64,000 bases of DNA, from contig WBOU01000002.1 of NCBI GenBank assembly GCA_009268125.1, positions 372,001 through 436,000 of the forward strand. The letters run 5' to 3'. The position numbers and the translations under genes were made by a program. The stretch comes from Chloroflexia bacterium SDU3-3 (GTDB lineage: Bacteria; Chloroflexota; Chloroflexia; Chloroflexales; Roseiflexaceae). This document shows, one piece after another, positions 60,649-63,434 of the stretch. The notes under the pieces are model-generated. The model did no database searches and was not told the DNA's origin. It saw nothing but the letters and a program-made list of their open reading frames with translations. The stretch's first letter is position 1, and every line of letters starts with the position of its first letter.

Positions 60649-62616
60649 ATGACTGAGACGGTAGATACCCTGCTCATCCACGCCACCATCGTGACGATGG
60701 ACCCCGGCGGCAACGTGTTTCAGGATGGCGCGCTGGCCATTCGCGGGCGCGATATTGTGGCCGTCGGCGCGACCGACGCCATCGCCGCGCGCTACGCCGC
60801 CAGCGAGACCATCGACTGCGCGGGGTGCGCGGTCATCCCCGGCCTGATTAACGGCCACGCCCACATCCCCATGAGCCTGCTGCGCGGCCTGGTCTCCGAC
60901 CAGCAGCTGGACGTGTGGCTGTTCGGCTACATGTTCCCGGTCGAGAGCCGCTTTGTGACGCCCGAGTTCGTCTACACTGGCTCCATGCTCTCCTGCGCCG
61001 AGATGATCCGCAGCGGCACCACCACCTTTGTCGACATGTACTACTTCGAGGACGAGGTGGCCCGCGCCGCCGATGAGAGCGGCATGCGCGCGATCTGCGG
61101 CCAGACCGTGATGCGCCTGCCCACCCCCGATGCGGCCTCGTTCGATGAGGGCCTGGAGCGCGTCCAGCGCTTTGTGGAGCAGTGGCACGGCCACGACCGC
61201 GTGATCCCCACCGTTGCGCCCCATGCGCCCTACACCTGCACCGACGAGATCTACCGCGAGGCGGCCCGGATCTGCCAGCAGTACGACGTGCCCATGACGA
61301 CCCACCTCTCCGAGACCGCCCACGAGGTGGAGGAGAGCCAGGATCAGCGCGAGGTGACGCCCATCCGCTACGCCAAGCGCGTGGGCGCGTTCGATGTGAA
61401 GTGTATCGCCGCCCACTGTGTGCACGCCACCAAGGACGACATCCGCCTGCTGCGCGAGCAGCGTGTGGGCGTGGTGCCCTGCCCCACATCCAACCTGAAG
61501 CTGGCCAGCGGCATCGCGCCCATCCGCCAGTTCATCAACGAGGGCGTGAACACCGGCCTGGGCACCGACGGCCCGGCCTCGAACGACGACCAGGACATGC
61601 TCACCGAGGTGCACCTGGCCGCCCTGCTGCCCAAGGGTGTGAGCGGCGACCCCACGGCGGTGCCCGCCCGCGAGGCGCTGGCGCTGGCCACATCCAGCGG
61701 CGCTCGCGCCATTCACATGGATCACCTGATCGGCTCGCTGGAGCCGGGCAAGCGCGCCGACCTGGTGGTGATCGAGCTGGGCAAGCTGCACAGCTCGCCG
61801 CGCTACCAGTACGCCCCCGACGCTATCTACTCGCAGCTGGTCTACAGCGCCCACTCCAGCGATGTGCGCGACACCATGGTGAACGGGCGCTGGCTGATGC
61901 GCGACCGCACCATGCTCACTGTGGATGAGGCGCACGTGCTTGGCGAGGCCCAGCGCGTGGCCGATATGGTGAATGTGTTTCTGGCCCAGCGCGAGTCGAA
62001 CGTGCTCGACAAGATCCTGGCCATCGGCGGCGTGCAGCAGGACGAGATCTTCGAGGTGCAGCTCAAGGCCCAGATCGCCCAATCCGACGCCGACCGCATC
62101 GCCGCGCTGCTCGAAGACCCGCGCATCCAGATCACCAAGACCAGCGAGCGCGACCAGTACGACACCTACTTCCTCTGGGCCGACGCCACCAAGGGCCGCG
62201 TGCGCATCCGCGAGGATCACCGCCGCGACCCGCAGGCCCGCGTCGAGCCGAAGTACACCATCACGCTCACCGCGCCCGAGCTGCGCGATGTCTACTCCGA
62301 CTCGGTGCTGCTCAGCCGCGCTCGCTACACCGCTAGCGCCGACCGCACGCTGCGCTTCTACCGCGAGTACTTCCAGCCCGACCGCGTGGTGGAGGTGGAG
62401 AAGCACCGCCGCCGCTGGCGGTTCATCTACCAGGGCCAGGATTTCGCGCTGAACATCGACACGCTCGATGGGCGGCCTAGCCCCTACCTGGAGATCAAGA
62501 GCCGCACCTGGAGCCGCCGCGACGCCCAGGCCAAGATCGACCTGATCGGCGAGCTGCTCAAGCTGTTTGGCGTGCCCGAGCAGGCCCTGATCACCCAGGA
62601 GTATGTGGACATGTAG
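60649..62616 (+). CDS. MTA/SAH-deaminase-type amidohydrolase fused to a CYTH-like domain
   Basis: Of 655 residues, about 1-430 form an amidohydrolase of the MtaD/SsnA/TrzN type. GLINGHAHIPMSLLRGL holds the HxH metal ligands, TTHLSETAHEVEE the third His, AAHCVHATKDD the fourth, and GTDGPASNDDQDM the metal Asp. It probably deaminates S-adenosylhomocysteine, 5'-methylthioadenosine or a related purine. From about 450 a CYTH-like triphosphate-tunnel domain follows: FEVQLKAQI in place of ExExK, YDTYFLWADATKGRVRIRED, KYTITLTAP, VEVEKHRRRW and SPYLEIKSRTWSRRDAQAKI. The fusion joins two nucleotide-related domains in one chain with no frameshift visible between them. Confidence 0.88.
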   Translation: MTETVDTLLIHATIVTMDPGGNVFQDGALAIRGRDIVAVGATDAIAARYAASETIDCAGCAVIPGLINGHAHIPMSLLRGLVSDQQLDVWLFGYMFPVESRFVTPEFVYTGSMLSCAEMIRSGTTTFVDMYYFEDEVARAADESGMRAICGQTVMRLPTPDAASFDEGLERVQRFVEQWHGHDRVIPTVAPHAPYTCTDEIYREAARICQQYDVPMTTHLSETAHEVEESQDQREVTPIRYAKRVGAFDVKCIAAHCVHATKDDIRLLREQRVGVVPCPTSNLKLASGIAPIRQFINEGVNTGLGTDGPASNDDQDMLTEVHLAALLPKGVSGDPTAVPAREALALATSSGARAIHMDHLIGSLEPGKRADLVVIELGKLHSSPRYQYAPDAIYSQLVYSAHSSDVRDTMVNGRWLMRDRTMLTVDEAHVLGEAQRVADMVNVFLAQRESNVLDKILAIGGVQQDEIFEVQLKAQIAQSDADRIAALLEDPRIQITKTSERDQYDTYFLWADATKGRVRIREDHRRDPQARVEPKYTITLTAPELRDVYSDSVLLSRARYTASADRTLRFYREYFQPDRVVEVEKHRRRWRFIYQGQDFALNIDTLDGRPSPYLEIKSRTWSRRDAQAKIDLIGELLKLFGVPEQALITQEYVDM

Positions 62617-62625
62617 TCATTTGCG

Positions 62626-62665
62626 CCCAGGTGATGGCCGATACACGCGTCGGCCATCATCTGGG
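62626..62665 (+). terminator. Hairpin after the deaminase-CYTH gene
   Basis: A 16-bp stem with one G-U pair (62626-62641 with 62650-62665) starts nine bases after the stop codon. There is no U tract, so it may stabilise the 3' end rather than terminate. Confidence 0.6.
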
Positions 62666-62746
62666 TGTCGGTCTATGACTTTAGCATGTCGGTCTATGAC
62701 TTTAGCATGCCGGTCTGTGACTTTGACGTGTCGGTCTATGATGAAT
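62666..62746 (+). repeat. 21-base tandem repeats upstream of coaE
   Basis: The unit TGTCGGTCTATGACTTTAGC plus A begins at 62666, 62687, 62708 and 62729. Copies one and two are identical, copy three has several changes and copy four is partial. Confidence 0.9.
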
Positions 62747-62819: not shown

Positions 62820-63434
62820 ATGCCAGCGCAGAGGCTCTACCTGATCGGGATGACGGGAAACATCGCCTGCGGCAAAAGCACCGTGCTGGCCGAGCTAGCG
62901 CGGCGCGGCGCAGCCGTGATCGATGCCGACCGCGTGACGCACGACCTGCAGCAGCCGGGCCAGCCGGTCTACCAGCAGATCGTGGCCGCCTTCGGGCCGC
63001 AGGTGGCCACCGCGCCGGGTGGGCCGCTCGACCGCAAGCGGCTGGCCAGCGTGGTGTTCAGCGACGCCGAGGCCCTGCGGCGGCTGGAGGCGATCGTGCA
63101 CCCCGCCGTGCGGGCCACGGTGTTCGGCTGGCTGGAGGAGGTGGCGCGGGCGGGGCTGGCCCGCGTGGCTGTGGTGGATGCGATCAAGCTGCTGGAGGCG
63201 GGCTGGAAGGCGCGTTGCGACGCGATCTGGGTCGTCACATGCACGCCCGAGCAGCAGGCCCAGCGCCTGATCGCCACGCGCGGCATGTCGCCCGAGGAGG
63301 CCCGCATGCGCATCGAGGCCCAGCCGCCCCAGGCCGATAAGGTGGCCCAGGCCGATGTGGTGATCGACAACAGCGGCCCGCTGGATGCCACCTTGGCCCA
63401 GATCGACCGCGCCTGGGAGAACCTGGGAACGTAA
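62820..63434 (+). CDS. coaE: Dephospho-CoA kinase
   Basis: The 204-residue protein has the P-loop GMTGNIACGKST, followed by VIDADRVTHDLQQPG with the conserved Asp-Ala-Asp. DRKRLASVVFSDAEALRRLEAIVHPAV, VVDAIKLLEAGW and the lid TPEQQAQRLIATRGMSPEEARMRI also match CoaE. It phosphorylates dephospho-CoA to finish coenzyme A. An AGGAGA lies five bases before the ATG. The stop codon TAA is the first base triplet of a CGAAG repeat block. Confidence 0.96.
   Translation: MPAQRLYLIGMTGNIACGKSTVLAELARRGAAVIDADRVTHDLQQPGQPVYQQIVAAFGPQVATAPGGPLDRKRLASVVFSDAEALRRLEAIVHPAVRATVFGWLEEVARAGLARVAVVDAIKLLEAGWKARCDAIWVVTCTPEQQAQRLIATRGMSPEEARMRIEAQPPQADKVAQADVVIDNSGPLDATLAQIDRAWENLGT

Follow-up and report, generated by a model that had tools for sequence, protein, structure and literature searches.

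A deaminase fused to a CYTH domain with a rewritten metal site in Chloroflexota: a possible metal-free phosphate sensor

Little is known of what CYTH domains do in the cell, and they are generally regarded as triphosphatases or cyclases. The locus analyzed here raises the question of what such a domain does when it is joined to a deaminase and its metal site has been altered. The gene lies in a 64,000-nucleotide stretch of the genome of Chloroflexia bacterium SDU3-3 (the window), at positions 60649..62616 of the + strand; all features described below are on this strand. It is a single uninterrupted open frame of 655 amino acids, from ATG to TAG, with a plausible ribosome site (AAGGAAA) just 5' of the start codon. 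The preliminary description of this DNA had read it as one continuous frame containing a deaminase and a CYTH-like domain, and our analysis led to the same view: the product truly joins a purine-nucleoside-type deaminase to a CYTH domain in one chain. The two parts are connected by a helical linker (residues 446-466; 61984..62046). The AlphaFold model has helices at residues 427-450 and 452-460, and the block means of pLDDT drop from 86 to 77 to 63 across residues 441-470.

The N-terminal part (residues 1-445; 60649..61983) is an amidohydrolase domain of the MTA/SAH/5'-deoxyadenosine deaminase type. It matches PF01979 (Amidohydro_1) with an E-value of 2.2e-76 and has the full HxH, H, E, H, D ligand set of this deaminase fold: metal ligands H70-x-H72 (60856..60864), metal ligand H219 and the catalytic acid/base E222 (61303..61314), H256 (61414..61416), and metal ligand D307 (61567..61569). 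These residues, together with E99, R147, and H192, were unchanged in all 34 of the diverse fused homologues that we compared, consistent with the earlier statement that all ligands are present. The nearest solved structures, both by sequence and by fold, are the MTA/SAH deaminases 4f0r, 4dyk, and 4gbd (36-37% identity over 434-436 residues; Z 55-56), and a fold search with the model of the whole protein was filled by matches to this domain. The nearest NCBIfam models are PRK09045, PRK06038, and PRK07228 (5'-deoxyadenosine deaminase), and all of these matches are under the models' own equivalog cut-offs (448.8 bits against 540 for PRK09045; 360.3 against 522 for PRK07228). The fused protein shares with the MTA/SAH and 5'-deoxyadenosine deaminases (PA3170, the C. 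violaceum enzyme 4f0r, TM0936, M. jannaschii DadD) the amidohydrolase fold, all metal ligands, and the E99, R147, and H192 positions, and it is 33-37% identical to the solved members. In contrast to those solved enzymes, which have no CYTH domain, the fused clade has invariant residues of its own (M17, G27, C116, E134, C257, and Y394).

The deaminase would remove the amino group from the adenine of a 5'-modified adenosine that arises as a by-product of S-adenosylmethionine (SAM) chemistry, and the candidate substrates are MTA, SAH, and 5'-deoxyadenosine. The host genome also encodes SAH hydrolase (AhcY), MTA phosphorylase (MTAP), and a separate adenosine deaminase, so gaps in its pathways do not force the choice of substrate. 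By elimination, these three enzymes favor 5'-deoxyadenosine only weakly, because MTA phosphorylases can act on 5'-deoxyadenosine too.

The C-terminal part (residues 467-655; 62047..62613) forms eight strands and a C-terminal helix in the model. The preliminary description had proposed a search with CYTH profiles as a check. The window protein's own C-terminal part did not match the Pfam CYTH profile (PF01928), although 15 of 34 homologous C-terminal domains did (best E-value 1.9e-8), and a genome search found the CYTH profile above Pfam's own cut-off inside the fused frames of several relatives. The nearest NCBIfam model is TIGR00318 (class IV cyclase, cyaB), which matched the window's domain at an E-value of 2.5e-5 and 27 of the 34 family members at E-values up to 0.1. 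Searches against PDB sequences with this part, whether as a single sequence or as a family profile, gave no useful match. Because fold searches with the whole model were swamped by the amidohydrolase domain, we folded the CYTH domain alone. The resulting AlphaFold model (34-row alignment; pLDDT 90.0, pTM 0.84) has an eight-stranded tunnel and aligns with solved CYTH/TTM structures at Z 12-16.5 (Foldseek E-value 2.3e-8). The closest matches, at Z about 16, include CYTH structures from Pyrococcus as well as SaTTM; the top entries are 2een (Z 16.5), 1yem (16.2), and SaTTM 7ns9 (15.8). The family profile and the fold matches together identify the domain as CYTH.

Comparison with known members of the CYTH/TTM family (SaTTM, PH1819, AtTTM3, ygiF, ThTPase) indicated which parts of the tunnel have been kept. 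The eight model strands bear the corresponding CYTH motifs in the same one-to-one order, and the RxR, KxR, and DxY motifs, the strand-7 Asp, and the C-terminal helix are shared. The fused domain differs in having ExQxK for ExExK and ExK for ExE, and in lacking the TxK lysine. In SaTTM the metal ligands are E5, E7, E135, and E137, and the triphosphate ligands are R56, R58, K69, K110, and R112; the second Glu of the canonical strand-8 ExE is a metal 2 ligand (PMC8233210). By profile alignment, the four metal ligands correspond to E469, Q471, E615, and K617 of the fused protein, and the five triphosphate ligands to R519, R521, residue 541, K585, and R587. The altered strand-1 motif is thus E469-x-Q471-x-K473 (62053..62067) and the altered strand-8 motif is E615-x-K617-x-R619 (62491..62505). 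Between them lie the conserved D505-x-Y507 (62161..62169), the predicted phosphate-binding RxR strand R519-x-R521-E522-D523 (62203..62217), residue 541 (62269..62271), the basic strand K585-x-R587-x-R589 (62401..62415), and D604 of strand 7 (62458..62460).

These changes are shared by the whole family. E-x-Q-x-K, in place of the ExExK hallmark of CYTH domains, and E-x-K, in place of the strand-8 ExE of two-metal TTM triphosphatases, were found in every one of the 136 distinct sequences retrieved that reaches those strands; a single contig-end fragment is without strand 1. In the 34 homologues, residue 541, the position of the canonical TxK lysine, is Ile, Thr, Met, Val, or Leu, and never Lys. 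E469, K473, RxR, D505, KxR, D604, and E615 are all invariant. The preliminary description had noted the altered first motif (EVQLK), and this reading holds across the family. Of the strands that it listed as CYTH-like, RxR stands, and EIKSR proved to be a second broken metal motif, with ExE changed to ExK. As judged from the sequences, then, the CYTH metal centre has been systematically rewritten in essentially every copy, while the predicted phosphate-binding Arg and Lys residues stay invariant. Sixteen of 18 invariant strand positions, on strand anchors that were chosen from conserved residues, are on alternate, tunnel-facing positions, as expected if the tunnel interior is kept for binding; the difference in mean entropy was not significant (p = 0.06).

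Intact ExExK and ExE motifs are present in CYTH domains encoded by the window's own genome and by other Chloroflexota. When the fused domain was aligned profile to profile with intact class-IV-like CYTHs from the phylum, nearly its full length was covered (E-value 1.3e-5), and the comparison with intact CHAD-associated and own-genome CYTHs aligned only 51 columns. The own-genome example is a separate gene, a 216-aa open frame with MEIEAK and ELEVE motifs. Five loci in Roseiflexus-like genomes have open frames of 706-774 aa with an intact CYTH, followed by a region that we take to be CHAD. These CYTH-CHAD proteins resemble the fusion in placing CYTH in a multi-domain protein, and differ from it in having intact ExExK and ExE.

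We found the C-terminal domain in 89 of 400 sampled Chloroflexota genomes and in 40 of 224 genera. The copies in the 89 genomes nearly all lie in open frames of 657-840 aa; the exceptions are two fragments, one in a genome in which the halves of the protein are on different contigs and the other running off the end of a contig. A profile search at an E-value of 0.01 detected one copy each in 62 of 301 genomes, and in those 301 genomes there was no standalone copy of the domain. The architecture is therefore conserved among relatives, and the gene is fused wherever it is complete, the opposite of the separate genes that would have counted against the preliminary description. A contig scan of all phyla confirmed 544 loci. 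Of the best 80, all but three carry Chloroflexota names (Chloroflexales, Herpetosiphon, Anaerolineae, Caldilineales, Ardenticatenia, and Thermoflexus); two of the three have just 'bacterium' as their title and the third is labeled Singulisphaera. A search for the C-terminal part in plasmids gave no match. In a tree of the deaminase part, all 25 fused copies fall on one side of a branch with support of 98/93, so a single fusion event suffices to account for them. Several Chloroflexales also have an unfused deaminase paralogue (eight loci; about 40% identical; open frames of 447-494 aa), which forms a separate clade.

The preliminary description knew of no characterized protein with this pairing. 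Our literature search, which reached little of the subscription literature, returned no paper joining CYTH, amidohydrolase, and fusion, and the only paper that it returned for the CYTH domain and Chloroflexi concerns PIWI proteins. Both halves are of known kinds; as far as we can tell, the pairing and the uniform rewriting of the metal site are undescribed.

The neighborhood of the gene varies across the phylum. In the window, coaE (dephospho-CoA kinase; PF01121, E-value 1.2e-47) is downstream at 62820..63434, after a gap of about 200 bp. In most Chloroflexia copies (26 loci) coaE is the next gene, mostly within about 40 bp or with a slight overlap. In Anaerolineae this linkage is absent, and the fusion gene is often between cinA and glycogen synthase. 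We regard this mixed neighborhood as weak evidence: no consistent partner emerges, and the place of coaE in the system is not established. PADLOC reported nothing, and thus there is no sign of a defence system. In six loci a divergent gene, presumably pyrimidine-nucleoside-phosphorylase-like, adjoins the fusion gene. The intergenic region of the window contains a hairpin-like inverted repeat without a T run right after the fusion stop codon (62633-62660; GATGGCCGA...TCGGCCATC) and a 21-bp tandem repeat of 3.6 copies before coaE (62666-62741; TGTCGGTCTATGACTTTAGCA).

We propose, at a probability of roughly 0.55, that the protein is a two-domain enzyme in which a deaminase of SAM by-products is adjusted by a catalytically retired CYTH tunnel that binds a phosphate ligand without metal. 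The tunnel has lost two of its four metal-holding glutamates, with a Lys at the position of the metal-2 ligand, and retains a ring of Arg and Lys residues predicted to grip phosphate. We infer that it most likely binds a phosphate-rich ligand, such as a nucleotide, pyrophosphate, or polyphosphate, in the absence of metal. Because the fusion is permanent, the ligand-bound domain would be expected to adjust the activity of the deaminase; which ligand it is, and that the coupling is allosteric, are guesses on our part. With Gln and Lys in the metal site, the domain would be expected to catalyze neither the two-metal triphosphatase nor the class IV cyclase reaction. The preliminary description had offered triphosphate hydrolysis, cAMP synthesis, or sensing as possible functions. 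Of these we retain sensing as the stronger part of the proposal; hydrolysis and cAMP synthesis are weakened, since the HF motif of cyclases is absent, as are the second Glu of ExExK and the strand-8 Glu for metal 2 (PMC8233210). Against a retired tunnel, E469, D505, D604, and E615 remain, so that one metal could bind, and AtTTM1/2-type proteins without the same motifs are reported to split pyrophosphate (PMC8233210).

The main rival follows from these last points: the CYTH domain could still be catalytic, but with a changed chemistry such as the pyrophosphatase activity of Arabidopsis TTM1/2, in which case the protein would be bifunctional. The invariance of E469, K473, RxR, D505, KxR, D604, and E615 fits this reading, as does the presence of the Arabidopsis TTM1 kinase-TTM module (7z67) among the fold matches (Z 13.4). 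TTM1 and TTM2 also have a CYTH domain joined to another enzyme and stripped of ExExK and ExE (PMC8233210), although their partner is a kinase domain and they are plant proteins, whereas here the partner is an amidohydrolase and the hosts are Chloroflexota; they also keep W/Y before RxR, where the fused family mostly has Arg. An invariant Lys at the metal-2 position, Gln at the strand-1 ligand, and loss of the TxK lysine make continued catalysis unlikely in our view. Class IV adenylyl cyclase activity is very improbable. The nearest NCBIfam model is TIGR00318, but the window scores 24.2 bits against its curated cut-off of 57.95, and the published motif rules (PMC8233210) point away from this activity: there is no HF motif before ExExK, R519 is invariant where cyclases have a small residue, and the second Glu of strand 8 is Lys where cyclases have Ala. 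We also considered thiamine triphosphatase, but its W/Y-x-R-x-R motif is absent; 27 of 34 homologues have Arg at residue 517, and Trp and Tyr are not among the commonest residues there.

We also weighed two further readings. The domain might serve only as a scaffold on which the protein oligomerizes or binds partners, in the manner of Mediator Med18/Med20, which have the same fold and are among the fold matches; such a role needs no set of approximately 16 invariant charged or polar residues at tunnel-facing positions across a phylum, and we consider it a slim prospect. Slimmer still is the chance that the tunnel tethers the substrate, gripping a larger adenine compound (for instance a dinucleoside polyphosphate or a CoA-like nucleotide) by its phosphate tail while the first domain deaminates the adenosine end. 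The conserved basic tunnel and the adjacency of coaE in the 26 Chloroflexia loci are in keeping with tethering, but the residues of the adenosine pocket match those of MTA/SAH deaminases, and in Anaerolineae cinA and glycogen synthase take the place of coaE.

The reading of a deaminase adjusted by a metal-free tunnel leads to a broader and more tentative proposal, which we hold at somewhat less than even odds: that the CYTH tunnel has become a metal-free phosphate or nucleotide sensor, a regulatory pseudoenzyme, that gates the clearance of SAM by-products across much of the phylum. If so, the fusion would couple this clearance to the status of phosphate or nucleotides. It would also provide a clear-cut example of a CYTH domain serving as a sensor, from a fusion of single origin, attached to an easily assayed enzyme, and would make the in vivo ligands of CYTH tunnels directly testable. 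For the family as a whole, the rewritten metal site is a warning against annotating the C-terminal part of these proteins as an adenylate cyclase or a triphosphatase.
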